Positions 1 to 21,620 of a DNA stretch of 56,567 bases are shown here, one piece after another. Numbering within the stretch: the first letter of the stretch is position 1; each line of letters starts with the position of its first letter. The notes beneath the pieces are model-generated. The model was not told the origin of the DNA. It did no database searches and worked only from the letters and a program-made list of their open reading frames with translations. Both the position numbers and the translations under genes were made by a program. This stretch comes from a virus, in IMG/VR virus record IMGVR_UViG_3300030103_000728, positions 1 to 56,567 of that record; one strand, written 5' to 3'.

Positions 1-501
1 CAGACGGAGTGGAATGGTCTGAAGGTAGGACCAGATGAGTATGAGCCAAAGCACCCACAGCTTGAGCCACCACAGGTAGGGCCAGATCCGCAAGCATTGT
101 TTGATCCACGTCCAGATCAAAGAACCGAGGTGGCTGGGCAACGACTTTTGATTCTCAATCCGTTTGAGTCAGGCTCTTCTGGTTCTAACGTAATTACTGT
201 ATATGAACCTTCTCATGGTCGCAGTACATCTGACGCTGTTAGGTTCCGCAAGGTAGAGGCATTCGATGGTTTTTCGGAAAGTTCTTTGGAAAAAGCTACA
301 GGCTATACGATCACTGTTGTTGACAGTAATTCGTACACAATCTCAATCACCGGAGGAGACACAGCGACAGCCGGTAATACACGAGGTGGCGGTGAAAATG
401 CAACCGCTGGGCCGGGTACAGCAACACCAACAACGGCATCGACCTTTGATGAGACAGATGTTAGACTCGATTCGACCAACAAGACTTTTGACGAGGGTTA
501 A
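1..501 (+). CDS. Virion structural protein, 3' part (5' end is probably the ORF at the window end)
   Basis: The frame is open from base 1 and begins QTEWNGLKVGPDEYEPKHPQ, so its start lies outside the window. The first part carries a conserved VGPDEYE-KHPQLEP motif that I associate with podovirus structural proteins beside the head-tail adaptor. The last third is rich in Thr, Gly and Ala, which suits an exposed virion surface. The gene at 56526, cut by the window end, reads MARYASGKDAWGYS and would continue into this one on a circular genome in the same frame. The stop abuts the next ATG. Function beyond virion structure is unknown. Confidence 0.8.
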   Translation, partial: QTEWNGLKVGPDEYEPKHPQLEPPQVGPDPQALFDPRPDQRTEVAGQRLLILNPFESGSSGSNVITVYEPSHGRSTSDAVRFRKVEAFDGFSESSLEKATGYTITVVDSNSYTISITGGDTATAGNTRGGGENATAGPGTATPTTASTFDETDVRLDSTNKTFDEG

Positions 502-1155
502 ATGGCAAAGCAAACAGTAGGTATTGGCTCTGCCGCGAATGATGGCACTGGTGACACTCTTCGCGATGGTGCCGATAAGATAAACGACAACTTTAACGAA
601 ATCTACGCCGCACTAGGAAACAGTTCTAGCGTACTAACCGACATCATAGATGCAAACGGTCTGCTTGATGTGAGTTCAGGCGCTAACAAGATTGTGTTTT
701 ACTATGCCGCTTTGAGCGATCTGCCTAGTGCCTCTACCTACCACGGTGCGGTAGCTCATGTTCACGCCACAGGTGGCCTTTATTTCGCTCATGGTGGCGT
801 TTGGATAAGATTGAACGACGAGACCACTGGTCCTGTCACTAAGTACACCGCTGGCACTAACGGAAGTTCAGCATATACATTTACCGGGCCGGGTGCAACT
901 TCAGGAGATAACCCAAATTTTACGTTCTATAAGGGCCACACCTATTTGATAGACAACACGGCAAACGTAAGCAGCCATCCTTTGCAGATCAGAACGTCTA
1001 ATGGTGGCTCTGCCTTTACAACAGGGGTGACAGAGAACTACAACTCAACAACTGGACTGACCCAGTTTATTGTGCCACATGAGCCAAGTGATACTTCATT
1101 GGTGTATCAATGCACTGTTCACAGCAGCATGGTTGGAAACATAACAATAGTATAG
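502..1155 (+). CDS. Virion protein with a C-terminal cupredoxin-like domain
   Basis: This is a 217-residue protein. Residues 12-36 carry the NDGTGDTLRD..DKINDNFNEIY motif common in phage tail and neck proteins. Residues about 135-217 look like a small beta-barrel with His159 in a ..NVSSHPLQI.. loop and Cys204, His207 and Met210 in YQCTVHSSMVG. The ligand set and order match type-1 copper proteins of the plastocyanin kind, though the Cys-His-Met spacing is shorter (C-x2-H-x2-M). It lies in the tail gene block directly after another structural gene with no gap. Copper binding is inferred; the fold could have lost the metal. Confidence 0.8.
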   Translation: MAKQTVGIGSAANDGTGDTLRDGADKINDNFNEIYAALGNSSSVLTDIIDANGLLDVSSGANKIVFYYAALSDLPSASTYHGAVAHVHATGGLYFAHGGVWIRLNDETTGPVTKYTAGTNGSSAYTFTGPGATSGDNPNFTFYKGHTYLIDNTANVSSHPLQIRTSNGGSAFTTGVTENYNSTTGLTQFIVPHEPSDTSLVYQCTVHSSMVGNITIV

Positions 1156-1165
1156 TGAGCAGGAC

Positions 1166-1813
1166 ATGTCATTTACATATGCAGAGCTAAAGACAGCGAT
1201 ACAGGATTACACGGAGAACACAGAGTCTACGTTTGTAACCAACTTGCCTACGTTCATTAAGAACACAGAGCAGCGCATATTCAAACTTGTTGACCTAGAG
1301 CTTTTCCGCAAAAATGCCACGTCAGCCTTGTCGCAGAATGACCCGTATCTTTCTGTGCCTAGCGACTACCTAGCGTCTTTTTCTATGTCGATCACCAACA
1401 GTAGCTCCAAAGAGTTTCTGTTGCAGAAGGATGTAAACTTTATCCAAGAGTATAACCCCAACGCATCCACAACAGGGGTTCCTAAGTATTACGCTTTCTT
1501 CGATATCGACAACTTCATTGTGTCGCCAACACCGAATGCAAACTTTGCTGTTGAGCTTCACTACTATTATAGGCCTACGTCATTAACAGCCGGGGCTGAT
1601 TCTGGTACAACATGGCTCAGTGAGAACGCTCCGAATGCCATGCTTTACGGTTCTTTGGTCGAAGCGTATACTTACATGAAAGGTGAGCAGGACATGCTTA
1701 CCATGTACGAGAAGCAGTTTACGGAAGCAATGACCAGGATTAAGGATCTGGCAGAGGCCAGAGAAAACAGCGATGCTTATCGCAGGGGTTTGCCGGAACG
1801 GCCCCGTACTTGA
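1166..1813 (+). CDS. Head-tail adaptor-like protein
   Basis: This 215-residue protein begins MSFTYAELKTAIQDYTEN and has the layout of phage adaptor (neck) proteins: an N-terminal helix, a central strand-rich part with VPSDYL and YYRP, and a C-terminal helix (MYEKQFTEAMTRIKDLAEAREN). Such proteins sit under the portal and join it to the tail. It resembles in layout the protein at 55858, so the genome may carry two diverged adaptors. The start follows a GAGCAGGA ribosome site. The family placement is from pattern only. Confidence 0.7.
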   Translation: MSFTYAELKTAIQDYTENTESTFVTNLPTFIKNTEQRIFKLVDLELFRKNATSALSQNDPYLSVPSDYLASFSMSITNSSSKEFLLQKDVNFIQEYNPNASTTGVPKYYAFFDIDNFIVSPTPNANFAVELHYYYRPTSLTAGADSGTTWLSENAPNAMLYGSLVEAYTYMKGEQDMLTMYEKQFTEAMTRIKDLAEARENSDAYRRGLPERPRT

Positions 1814-1823
1814 GGAGTAAAAA

Positions 1824-2255
1824 ATGGCAACGTCGAATGCAGCAACCAACTATACAGAACATGCTATATTGCAGTTTCTGTTTAAAAACAACGCGGAGAG
1901 TTTTGCAACTCCCGGTAACAGTATCTATGTCGGTCTAGCTACCGCAGTTAGCAGTATCGAAACAGGCTCTGTCACTGAAGCGGACTTTACTAACTATGCG
2001 AGGCAACAGGTAGCGGCTTCTGGTTGGACGGTTCCTGCTGTTAGCACAGACGCACAGACAGCTACAAATGCAGCGAACATTGAGTTTCCAGCATCTGGTG
2101 GCGGCGGTGACGACACAATTACTCATGTGTTCATAGCTGACGCATCAAGTAGCGGAAATATCCTCTTTGTAGGAGCTTTGGACGCCAATAAAACAATTCA
2201 AAGTGGTGACATCTTCCGCCTTAATGCAGGCAATCTGACTGTTGAGCTGAAGTAA
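1824..2255 (+). CDS. Phage structural protein (tail-associated)
   Basis: A 143-residue protein. The N-terminal half (THAILQFLF-type helix, then SIYVGLATA) matches a widespread short phage domain found next to tail fibre genes. The region around residue 90 has a Gly run (ASGGGGDDTITHVFIAD) followed by beta strands ending FRLNAGNLTVELK. It is preceded by a GAGG ribosome site and its stop overlaps the next start. Probably part of the tail tip or fibre attachment; the exact role is unknown. Confidence 0.7.
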   Translation: MATSNAATNYTEHAILQFLFKNNAESFATPGNSIYVGLATAVSSIETGSVTEADFTNYARQQVAASGWTVPAVSTDAQTATNAANIEFPASGGGGDDTITHVFIADASSSGNILFVGALDANKTIQSGDIFRLNAGNLTVELK

Positions 2256-17678: not shown

Positions 17679-20600
17679 ATGGCAAAAACTTTTCTTGAGC
17701 AGATGCAGGAGGAACTAGAAGCCTCCACCTCAACTCCAACCTCTACTGACTTCGCATCCACCAATCGTAGGAGAGAGCTTACCGACGAGAACGAGGGTAC
17801 GCTTCAAGAGATTGGTGAGGGTATCGTATCTGGTGTGTTAGCTGTTCCACAAGGGATCTTGGAACTGGGTGGTTCTGCCATAGATCTGGTAGCAGATACA
17901 AACTACGCGCAGAATGTTGATGACATGTTCGCCGGTATTCGAGCTGCTGGGGGGATTGATCCCGTTGGTACTCCAGGTGAAATCGCTGAAGTCGTTACTC
18001 AGTTTGTAGTTCCTGGTCTAGGTGTTGCTGGCGCTGTCGGTAGAATGGGCGCTCTTTCAAATGTGAGCAAAACAACCAGAGCCGCCGCACAAGCTGGGGC
18101 CGCTGGGGTTACTGATGCTGTTGTATCGACAAACGGAACAACAACAATCGGAGACTTTTTCGGCGGGGGTCCAACAGAAACCACAGATCTAATTGGTCTT
18201 GAAGGTAGAGAAGCCGCTGCCGCTAGAATCGGGAACAAGCTCAAGGTGGGGTTTGAAGCCGCTGGCGCGACTGCTCTTGTAGAACCTACATTCAAAGCTC
18301 TTGGACTCGTGGGCGGAACAGCCGCTAGGATTGCCTCTAAGCCAGCCATAGTAGGAACAGCAACACAAAAGCTGATGGAAGCAAGCACTGCACTGTCCAC
18401 TCGTGGCGGTGAGTTTGCAGAAAAACTACTGGGGGAAGAAAACTTTGATGCGGTAAAATCAGTGTTCAGGGCAAGAGGAAACCTGCCACAGGACGTATTT
18501 GAGGTTAGATCTCTTATATCTGGACGGGTTCAGGCAGAGGCTAACATTGCTGCTCGCACCCTGAAAGACTTAGGCAAAAACATAGATAAAGCATACAAGG
18601 GCGTTGAAGAGGTTATGGTTAACGGAACCTCTCTTACTCGGGCCGACTTGAACAATGATCTGTACGGTTACTTGACAGGTGAGATTTCTGAAAAAGCGTT
18701 GCCAGACTTCATAAAGGTACAAGCTAAAGCTATGAGAGATCAGGTTGATGGCCTGTCCAATAGAATCCTTAACTCAGACTATCTCTCAAAGTCTGACCAG
18801 CAAGACATCATAGACACAATTAAAGGTAATATTGGCTCTTACATACGCCGCAAGTATCGCTTGTTTGAGGACGGCAAAGGGTTTATGCAAACTGCCGAAT
18901 TCAAAAAAGGCAAGGCTGACACCATAAAATTGTTTGAAAAAAACCCGGATATATACAGACAGTTCCATGATCAGATTATCGGGTTTGATGATCTAAGTGG
19001 TCTGTCAAAGGTTGATGAAGGGGTTTTTGTTGGTGTCGGCAAATCGCAGAAAGTAAGCAGGCAAGCTGCTGAAGACTTGACTGAGAAGTTGCTTGCCGCT
19101 TCTCAGGCCAAGAAGGGTAAATACGCAAAAAATGTAGGCGTAAACAGAGTTGTTGTTGATAAGTTAAGAACAGATTTGTTTAAAGCGAGGAACAGCCAGC
19201 CAGAAGCAATCCGTAGAATGCTGGGAGAGGTGAAAGATCCGCAAGAGGCATTCATATCTACCATTGAAGACATGGCTGTGTTTTCAGCGACAGATGATTT
19301 TCTTGGGTACATAGCCAACAAGGCTGGAGATAGCGGAGAGATCCTGACAAAAGAGGCGTATGCCAGACTACCTAATGAGCTGAAAGAACAGTACGAGGTT
19401 CTTGGCCCAGCCAAAAAAGGTGCCGCAGATTACTGGGGCACAGCCTCTGGCCTAGCTGTGAGCAACAACATGTACAAAGATCTCACAAGGATTGTTGCAA
19501 ACGATACGTCTTCAATGGGTAACTTGGCTCGCTCTTCTTACTCCGCGTTTCTCAGAGCGAAGGGCATAACGCAGTTTGGTAAAACTGTTCTATCCCCCGT
19601 TACACAAGTAAGGAACGTAACATCTGCTGCTTTGTTTGCTTTGGCACAGGGTAATGTTGGTCGTGGGGCAAACGTCTTTGAGTCATTTAACATGGTTATG
19701 AACAATATAAGAAAGAAGTCCACAGCCGAGCAGTTAGAGGAATACGCCAAACTTCAGAGACTGGGTGTAATCGGCAATCAAGCACAGTTAAAAGAGATAG
19801 ACAGACTCATTAATGAAGGCTACGGAGTCACTCGTGACGCTGATGAAGTCATTGCTGGAATCAGGGTCGGTAAAAATGCTGGAAATAAATTTACTCAATC
19901 TAGCGCGGCTCAGTTCCTGAACAAGAAGCTTGATGTTGCCCGAGAATACTATCAGGGCGGTGATGATCTTTGGAAAATATACAACTTTAACTTTGAGAAA
20001 AACAAAATACTGTCTGCCTTTGGGACAGAGTTAGAGGCCACCAAAGCATTGCGAGCTTCTAAACAAATCACAGAAACTCAAACGCTAGACGATTACGCTG
20101 CCGACATTGTTCGCAACACCGTGCCCAACTATGAGAGAGTACCGGCTTTTGTAAAGGGTCTTCGTAAGCTACCTCTTGGTAACTTTATTGCGTTTCCTGC
20201 TGAGATTCTTCGTACAAGTGCAAACACACTAAAGCAATCACTTGACGAACTAGCGAGTGGCAACGCAAGAGTTCGTGAGATTGGAATGCGTCGTCTTACT
20301 GGGTTGATGTCCACCACGATGATTCTTCCCGCTGCCATTCAACAGACAGCTATGGGCTTGACCGGCGTCAGTCAAGAACAGTTAGACGCAGCTAGGCGTA
20401 GCGCGGCCCCTTGGTCTCGTAACAGTAGACTAATCCCTACCTCAGTGGATGAGGATGGGAATCTAACAGGATACGTTGATTATAGCTTTACTAATCCATA
20501 CGACTATCTCCAGCGTCCTATACAGGCAATCTTTAACGCTGTTAAAGATGGGCAGGACTTAGGAAAAGACACAGGAAGTATTGCCACCAACGCCGTATTA

Positions 20601-21620
20601 GAAGCTGTTACTGAAATGGTAAAACCTTTCGGGGATGAGTCTATGCTCACCGAAAGATTGTTAGATTCAACGTATCGGCAGGGTGTTACTGGCACAGGAG
20701 CGCGTGTCTACAGAGACGTAGATACCCCCGGCACCAAGGCTTACAAAAGTCTTTTCCATATAGCCGAAGCATTTAATCCTGGCGGATCTCCTGTAACATT
20801 TAAAGCGCAGGAAAAAACAACTCAGACTGGTGGTTTTGAGTTTGGTAGGTTTTTGCGTGGCACACTCCCTGACGCTATGGTCAGCGACAAAGACGCTGCT
20901 GGAAACGAAAGAAGCGCGGCGGAGGAACTTCTTCGTGCTGTGACAGGACTGGGCGAAGTCAAAGTAAAGCCAGACAAAATTGCCATGTACTCATCTTTTG
21001 ACTACAGCAGTAACATAACAGGTGCCCGCCAGATTTTTAACACAGCAGTTAAGACTCAAGGTGCCTTGTCCGATAGTGATGCTACATCTGTTTACCGAGA
21101 CGCTAATGACGCACTCCTCAGAGTTCAGAACAGAATGTACCAGACCGTAAATGATATGCGGGCGCTTGGCATGAGAGATAGCGAAATCAGAAGGTCGCTA
21201 AAAAAATATAAGGTTGGTGACGTAACAAATCTTATGCGTGGTAAATTTACACCTATGCAGGTTAGTGACGAAACTAGAAGAGCGGTCAGAGATAACGGCA
21301 ACCGCTTGCCTATGAGTGAGATACGTTCAATTCAAAGAGAGTACAGAGGAATAGAACTTGGCGGAGAGGAAGAAGAAACTCGAACCTTGGACGCTGGGGT
21401 TAGCGCACCCATCGTAATGCCCCCTAGCCTTACATCTAGCACCACTCAACCATCTCCCGCAGCGGTGGTCGCTCCCACTGCGGGACAGGGGGTCGGAGCG
21501 CAACAGACAGCCCCTGCTGCTCCGACCTCCAACACCACGATTAGAAATAATCCAGCCTTACTTGGGTCAAATCCAATTAATGTCCTGAAGAACATGATTA
21601 TAGGTCAAAGGAATCCATAG
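17679..21620 (+). CDS. Very large internal virion (DNA ejection) protein
   Basis: At 1313 residues this is the largest gene, next to the endolysin. The N-terminus has a Ser/Thr-rich segment and hydrophobic Gly/Ala stretches (VTQFVVPGLGVAGAVGRMG). The central part is helical with KGITQFGKTVLSPVTQVRNVTSAALFALAQGN, a segment typical of large podovirus ejection proteins. The C-terminus has a Pro/Thr/Ala-rich tail. I see no clear transglycosylase Glu motif. By analogy with T7 gp16-type proteins it should be packed in the head and span the cell envelope on infection. Confidence 0.75.
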   Translation: MAKTFLEQMQEELEASTSTPTSTDFASTNRRRELTDENEGTLQEIGEGIVSGVLAVPQGILELGGSAIDLVADTNYAQNVDDMFAGIRAAGGIDPVGTPGEIAEVVTQFVVPGLGVAGAVGRMGALSNVSKTTRAAAQAGAAGVTDAVVSTNGTTTIGDFFGGGPTETTDLIGLEGREAAAARIGNKLKVGFEAAGATALVEPTFKALGLVGGTAARIASKPAIVGTATQKLMEASTALSTRGGEFAEKLLGEENFDAVKSVFRARGNLPQDVFEVRSLISGRVQAEANIAARTLKDLGKNIDKAYKGVEEVMVNGTSLTRADLNNDLYGYLTGEISEKALPDFIKVQAKAMRDQVDGLSNRILNSDYLSKSDQQDIIDTIKGNIGSYIRRKYRLFEDGKGFMQTAEFKKGKADTIKLFEKNPDIYRQFHDQIIGFDDLSGLSKVDEGVFVGVGKSQKVSRQAAEDLTEKLLAASQAKKGKYAKNVGVNRVVVDKLRTDLFKARNSQPEAIRRMLGEVKDPQEAFISTIEDMAVFSATDDFLGYIANKAGDSGEILTKEAYARLPNELKEQYEVLGPAKKGAADYWGTASGLAVSNNMYKDLTRIVANDTSSMGNLARSSYSAFLRAKGITQFGKTVLSPVTQVRNVTSAALFALAQGNVGRGANVFESFNMVMNNIRKKSTAEQLEEYAKLQRLGVIGNQAQLKEIDRLINEGYGVTRDADEVIAGIRVGKNAGNKFTQSSAAQFLNKKLDVAREYYQGGDDLWKIYNFNFEKNKILSAFGTELEATKALRASKQITETQTLDDYAADIVRNTVPNYERVPAFVKGLRKLPLGNFIAFPAEILRTSANTLKQSLDELASGNARVREIGMRRLTGLMSTTMILPAAIQQTAMGLTGVSQEQLDAARRSAAPWSRNSRLIPTSVDEDGNLTGYVDYSFTNPYDYLQRPIQAIFNAVKDGQDLGKDTGSIATNAVLEAVTEMVKPFGDESMLTERLLDSTYRQGVTGTGARVYRDVDTPGTKAYKSLFHIAEAFNPGGSPVTFKAQEKTTQTGGFEFGRFLRGTLPDAMVSDKDAAGNERSAAEELLRAVTGLGEVKVKPDKIAMYSSFDYSSNITGARQIFNTAVKTQGALSDSDATSVYRDANDALLRVQNRMYQTVNDMRALGMRDSEIRRSLKKYKVGDVTNLMRGKFTPMQVSDETRRAVRDNGNRLPMSEIRSIQREYRGIELGGEEEETRTLDAGVSAPIVMPPSLTSSTTQPSPAAVVAPTAGQGVGAQQTAPAAPTSNTTIRNNPALLGSNPINVLKNMIIGQRNP

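Follow-up and report, generated by a model that had tools for sequence, protein, structure and literature searches.

Electron-transfer proteins and copper enzymes are where type-1 copper centres are known to occur. Among these, amicyanin and the N-terminal cupredoxin of the Hyphomicrobium copper nitrite reductase (CuNiR) are periplasmic electron-transfer proteins in which the ligands follow a His...Cys-x2-His-x2-Met spacing within a Y-x-C-T-x-H-x-x-M-x-G loop, with a tyrosine two residues before the cysteine, whereas plastocyanin (petE), be it cellular or a phage metabolic gene, has a C-x2-H-x4-M loop (CEPHRGAGM in the plastocyanin L213) and His-Asn at the first ligand, is exported and does not belong to the virion. 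On the phage side, the cyanophage gp9 or baseplate wedge connectors (phrog_677) are proteins of ~400-500 aa with extra internal modules from contractile-tailed phages, and their annotation does not mention copper. Metal on marine phage tails is an existing idea: the Ferrojan horse proposal (PMC11705849) builds on HxH motifs that bind iron in T4 gp37 and in the fibres of marine phages. Our literature search, confined to the open literature and thus no proof of novelty, returned no description linking cupredoxins with phage virions.

Here we analyse a 217-aa tail protein encoded in the window, the whole 56,567-nt stretch of the IMG/VR virus record IMGVR_UViG_3300030103_000728. Its C-terminal domain is like amicyanin and the Hyphomicrobium CuNiR domain in predicted fold, ligand spacing, tyrosine and loop, but it has a proline after the first ligand histidine, has no signal peptide and is fused to a phage tail anchor. 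It shares predicted fold and ligand set with plastocyanin as well (reached by a phage profile at 1e-8). With the cyanophage connectors it shares an N-terminal anchor and C-terminal cupredoxin, at 40% identity end to end to the S-SZBM1 protein, although the window protein is shorter and belongs to a podovirus-like genome. Secreted Bacteroidota cupredoxin lipoproteins (for example L181, L199 and L200) have the same His-Pro variant and all four ligands, yet they are secreted or located at the cell surface, frequently carry CHRD domains and lack a phage anchor. The Ferrojan horse motifs likewise put metal on a marine phage tail, but as octahedral iron along a trimeric fibre rather than in a predicted mononuclear copper site of a cupredoxin.

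The tail gene and the predicted fold of its C-terminal domain

The N-terminus matches the T4 gp9/gp10-like family at 37.9 bits against a gathering cutoff of 25 (profile positions 1-60 of 175), and the N-termini of T4 gp10 and gp9 in the PDB match the same residues by sequence. The middle module corresponds to a stretch of the tail fibre family phrog_9729. The C-terminal part, residues 108-217, aligns to profile positions 301-409 of 412 in phrog_677 (baseplate wedge tail fiber connector) with an E-value of 2.7e-49. Beyond the neighbours listed in the table, the surrounding genes include collagen-like and S74-chaperone fibres. Elsewhere in the window, a 1313-aa ORF at 17679-21620 has no Pfam match.

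Window positions of the tail gene, its modules, its predicted copper ligands and its neighbours
Feature	Position	Strand	Basis or remark
217-aa tail protein	502..1155	+	ORF; gp9/10-type anchor, middle module and predicted C-terminal cupredoxin
T4 gp9/gp10-like anchor, residues 3-61	508..684	+	PF07880; PDB T4 gp10/gp9 N-termini
Middle module, residues 65-107	694..822	+	phrog_9729; also in marine phage tail fibre proteins
Predicted cupredoxin domain, residues 109-217	826..1152	+	AlphaFold2, Foldseek, VIA, profile
His159, predicted first type-1 ligand, followed by Pro160	976..978	+	invariant, 31 clusters
Cys204, predicted ligand	1111..1113	+	invariant; codons TGC/TGT
His207, predicted ligand	1120..1122	+	invariant, 31 clusters
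Met210, predicted axial ligand	1129..1131	+	invariant, 31 clusters
Upstream flank, KHPQLEPP protein	97..501	+	listed ORF from 97; frame open to window start
Downstream flank, SU10-type adaptor protein	1166..1813	+	PF24175 4.4e-27
Fibre protein, GP4 gp80 kind	1824-2255		neighbour, downstream side

The 498-aa baseplate wedge protein of S-SZBM1 has the same anchor, middle module, cupredoxin and ligands as the window protein, with the middle module in the same order. Mass spectrometry detected S-SZBM1_206, which we equated with the corresponding CDS (L215) by its length of 498 aa and its product name, in virions purified on CsCl (9 peptides, 24.9% coverage; PMC9146016). The proposal of the preliminary description that the gene encodes a virion protein of the tail block is supported by the gp9/10-type anchor, the tail PHROGs, the tail-module context and a homologue in virions.

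That description had also proposed a cupredoxin-type C-terminal domain and suggested structure prediction against cupredoxins as a check. An AlphaFold2 model of the window protein, built from an alignment of 37 sequences, has pLDDT block means of 73-93 across residues 111-217; the remainder is of low confidence, and we left the N-terminal half uninterpreted. All 50 of the 50 VIA matches listed for model residues 110-217 are copper cupredoxins, headed by the N-terminal cupredoxin of the Hyphomicrobium copper nitrite reductase (Z 10.2, 96 aligned residues, rmsd 2.9 A) and followed by laccases (Z ~8-9) and rusticyanin (up to 8.9). Foldseek listed the same proteins together with plastocyanin, amicyanin, pseudoazurin and AcoP, and a structure search of a viral library matched cyanophage connectors and fibres. 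A sequence profile built from ten phage domains retrieved copper nitrite reductases, plastocyanins and amicyanins from the PDB (best 2.9e-5 to ~1e-3), with many other cupredoxins behind them, and in the profile alignments displayed the ligand loop is in register, the Hyphomicrobium loop reading YHCTPHPFMSG. Eight of the ten profile members match the NCBIfam amicyanin model TIGR02657 at E <1 (best 8.3e-5), and five match Pfam Copper-bind (PF00127, plastocyanin/azurin) weakly (best E 0.0011); P-HM1 reached 18.2 bits there, against a cutoff of 21.2. The window domain alone matched neither TIGR02657 nor PF00127, staying below the gathering cutoff of the latter. A later profile of 192 matches retrieved cyanobacterial plastocyanins (L213, L214) at ~1e-8 with all ligands aligned. 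Model, structure searches and profiles thus bear out the proposal: the domain is predicted to have a cupredoxin fold.

Conservation of the predicted copper ligands

His159, Cys204, His207 and Met210 lie exactly where the preliminary description had placed them, in the settings SSHPLQIR (His159) and LVYQCTVHSSMVGNITIV (Cys204, His207 and Met210); Cys204 is the sole cysteine of the protein. The remark that the C-x2-H-x2-M spacing is shorter than in plastocyanin holds, but it marks no oddity, being normal in amicyanin and in the Hyphomicrobium CuNiR domain. That spacing occurs in 175 of 185 redundant alignment rows, the rarer forms being C-x2-H-x3-M and C-x4-H-x2-M.

A scan of genome contigs used a pattern that included the Cys, His and Met ligands, and we therefore judged conservation by a ligand-free scan of viral sequences instead, whose query (A1) was the part of the domain preceding the first ligand, which avoids circularity. 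All four ligands were present in 79 of 80 loci, and the 80th (L103) runs off its contig end. Gaps in the ligand columns of the full alignment stem from a contig end, from long-loop variants whose ligands lie past the local match, and from split partial matches. The relatives fall into 31 clusters at <70% identity, between which pairwise identity averages 44% and drops to 24% at the lowest. Only seven of the 106 domain columns never vary, namely those of the four ligands, of Tyr202 and of two glycines. Four named columns would fall among seven invariant ones by chance with a hypergeometric p = 7e-6, and a chance motif is ruled out by the invariance over the 31 clusters. In a set of 62 close and distinct relatives, the codons for His and Cys differ by synonymous changes alone while the residues stay constant, and every cellular relative that we examined, plastocyanin included, has all four ligands. 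A complete and conserved His, Cys, His and Met set thus occupies homologous positions, its conservation is near-absolute and under purifying selection, and homologs rarely lose it. Neither of the two outcomes that the preliminary description had named as refuting, a predicted fold unlike cupredoxin or homologs that shed the ligands freely, was thus obtained.

The single loss that we saw is in S-CAM1, where the domain passes into a protease-like region after the first histidine. This fibre protein (L091:796-3060) has a cupredoxin without Cys-His-Met, and immediately upstream there is a C-H-M tail belonging to another copy; either the ligands were lost naturally or the site bears the scar of a recombination.

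The preliminary description had also considered that only the fold was borrowed. The cupredoxin beta-sandwich would then serve as an adhesin-like spacer and be copper-free in nature. Beta-sandwich domains are common swappable fibre modules and the S-CAM1 copy lacks Cys-His-Met, which fits such a spacer, but scaffold-only cupredoxins are expected to lose their ligands, while here the ligands are invariant as most other columns vary and their codons change synonymously. The invariance disfavours a copper-free spacer, which we regard as improbable. From the same invariance, copper binding by the domain appears quite probable.

One feature sets the site apart from its small relatives. Small blue copper proteins usually carry an asparagine after the first ligand histidine, in place of which the window domain has Pro160, and the site may accordingly depart from the standard blue type. 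Multicopper oxidases, however, also have His-Pro at their type-1 site, and Pro160 therefore does not exclude copper.

Distribution and acquisition of the domain

In tblastn searches of 50,697 phage records with three different queries, the domain was found in ~330-350 records, nearly all of them Synechococcus or Prochlorococcus phages; the few others are Pelagibacter, Methylophilales, Actinomycetia and uncultured marine phages. In marine phages it forms the C-terminal end of proteins resembling gp9 or gp10, but its setting varies: it also lies close to the N-terminus in podovirus fibres (P-GSP1, P-SCSP2), occurs several times in P-SSM2, and stands beside a subtilase in P-HM1. Syn9 is another cyanophage with the domain. 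A second, long-loop cupredoxin (H...C-x2-H-x2-M) lies downstream of gp9 in 293 phage records of marine cyanomyoviruses and is joined to a YHYH domain in both copies that we examined (S-SSM4 and L105:2006-3958); judged by its ligands, it is a potential second copper site near the baseplate. Such a long-loop gene after gp9 lies, for example, at L083:1822-3312.

The window phage itself has an SU10-like portal. Its portal and DNA polymerase are ~50% identical to those of the SAR11 podoviruses HTVC023P and HTVC027P, with the Roseobacter phages CRP-901 and CRP-902 next closest for the portal, so a heterotrophic marine bacterium is a likelier host for it than a cyanobacterium. In HTVC027P, HTVC023P and CRP-901 the homologues of the two genes that flank the window gene abut, and the cupredoxin domain is absent from the whole records of these three phages. 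By this comparison, the window gene is an accessory piece of the tail that this lineage acquired, probably through exchange with tail genes of the cyanophage type, as the shared module order suggests.

Cellular occurrences comprise secreted Bacteroidota proteins and one signal-peptide protein on a Prochlorococcus contig. The domain was found in 13 of 247 cell genomes drawn from the phylum of G001 and in 3 of 194 from that of G003, the latter a Prochlorococcus single-cell genome that encodes the signal-peptide protein (L195; 148 aa), which has the same copper ligands and resembles the P-SSM2 and P-HM1 domains. L195 is a possible host-side source of the domain. The hits L176-L178 from cell bins resemble contigs of phages and hence give no evidence of a cellular origin: L177 (NZ_RMVE01000006.1, assigned to Nonlabens xiamenensis) is a 188-kb contig with 99% identity over 12.3 kb to the cyanophage P-TIM40 (188.6 kb), an apparent contamination of a flavobacterial genome. 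A tree of the domain, with few columns and weak inner support, has one virus-only group of 34 viral domains (SH-aLRT 85) and a few viral domains among the cellular ones, which suggests that viruses acquired the domain more than once.

The kinship to plastocyanin raises the question of an auxiliary metabolic gene, that is, a soluble plastocyanin-like electron carrier acting inside the infected cell. Cyanophages do carry true petE (PMC2984593), and a relative in S-SCSM2R (L089:2797-3303), where the domain forms a small separate protein, is annotated PetE. However, the nearest isolated relatives of the window phage infect the non-photosynthetic SAR11 and Roseobacter, and the tail anchor, the lack of a signal peptide, the location in the tail module and the virion homologue speak against a metabolic PetE for the window gene, leaving such a carrier largely refuted and exceedingly improbable. 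The S-SCSM2R protein lacks a signal peptide too, and a peptidase S8-like protein is among its neighbours; its PetE label is a probable misannotation of a virion-type cupredoxin as a photosynthesis gene.

Possible roles of copper on the tail

We favour, with rather more confidence than doubt, a protein that is an accessory part of the tail in a marine short-tailed phage and displays a type-1 cupredoxin, perhaps as a rigid copper-locked module. The gp9/gp10-type N-terminus would anchor the protein in the tail, the C-terminal cupredoxin would be displayed outward, and each chain would most likely hold one copper ion in a type-1 site of His159, Cys204, His207 and Met210. The copper-locked, rigid peripheral module would then stabilise or present a receptor-contacting part of the tail in seawater. 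That the role is structural or adhesive is our guess from the position in the tail; a metal-locked peripheral tail module is the likeliest role, with redox use and receptor mimicry as possible ones. Two points bear on copper loading: the protein has no signal peptide, and copper in seawater is scarce and mostly complexed. With no export signal, the copper would come from the lysing cell or from seawater.

Redox use would mean that the virion's copper alternates between Cu(I) and Cu(II), either trading electrons with a partner at the host surface or in the periplasm, or switching the tail when the tail meets the reducing cell surface. Type-1 sites are built for electron transfer, and the complete set, axial methionine included, is kept together with the amicyanin-type loop, where a purely structural metal would not require precisely these ligands. 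But there is no known partner, a single one is unlikely for hosts as different as cyanobacteria, SAR11 and Methylophilales, and the domain occupies many unrelated positions in tail proteins; we hold this to be unlikely.

Receptor mimicry would be a copper Trojan horse: a host receptor for copper uptake or for copper proteins would recognise the loaded copper or the surface of the cupredoxin. It would be the copper counterpart of the iron-in-tail-fibre hypothesis already put forward for marine phages (PMC11705849), and it fits a domain that is almost confined to marine phages and that has similar versions secreted by bacteria, such as the signal-peptide protein L195. Type-1 copper, though, is buried and tightly held, and the domain often sits in the baseplate connector rather than at a fibre tip, making such a lure distinctly improbable.

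With the four ligands almost never missing, marine phage particles bearing the domain probably carry copper. A conserved type-1 centre in proteins on the tails of abundant marine phages would take this chemistry to a new setting and would turn virions into copper-binding particles in copper-poor seawater. As a tentative and less probable extension, working redox-active type-1 copper centres may sit on marine phage tails, with the copper state taking part in host contact, triggering or stability; if this were true, virions would be a redox-active copper pool in the ocean. Finally, some phage "PetE" calls may be tail proteins rather than metabolic genes.
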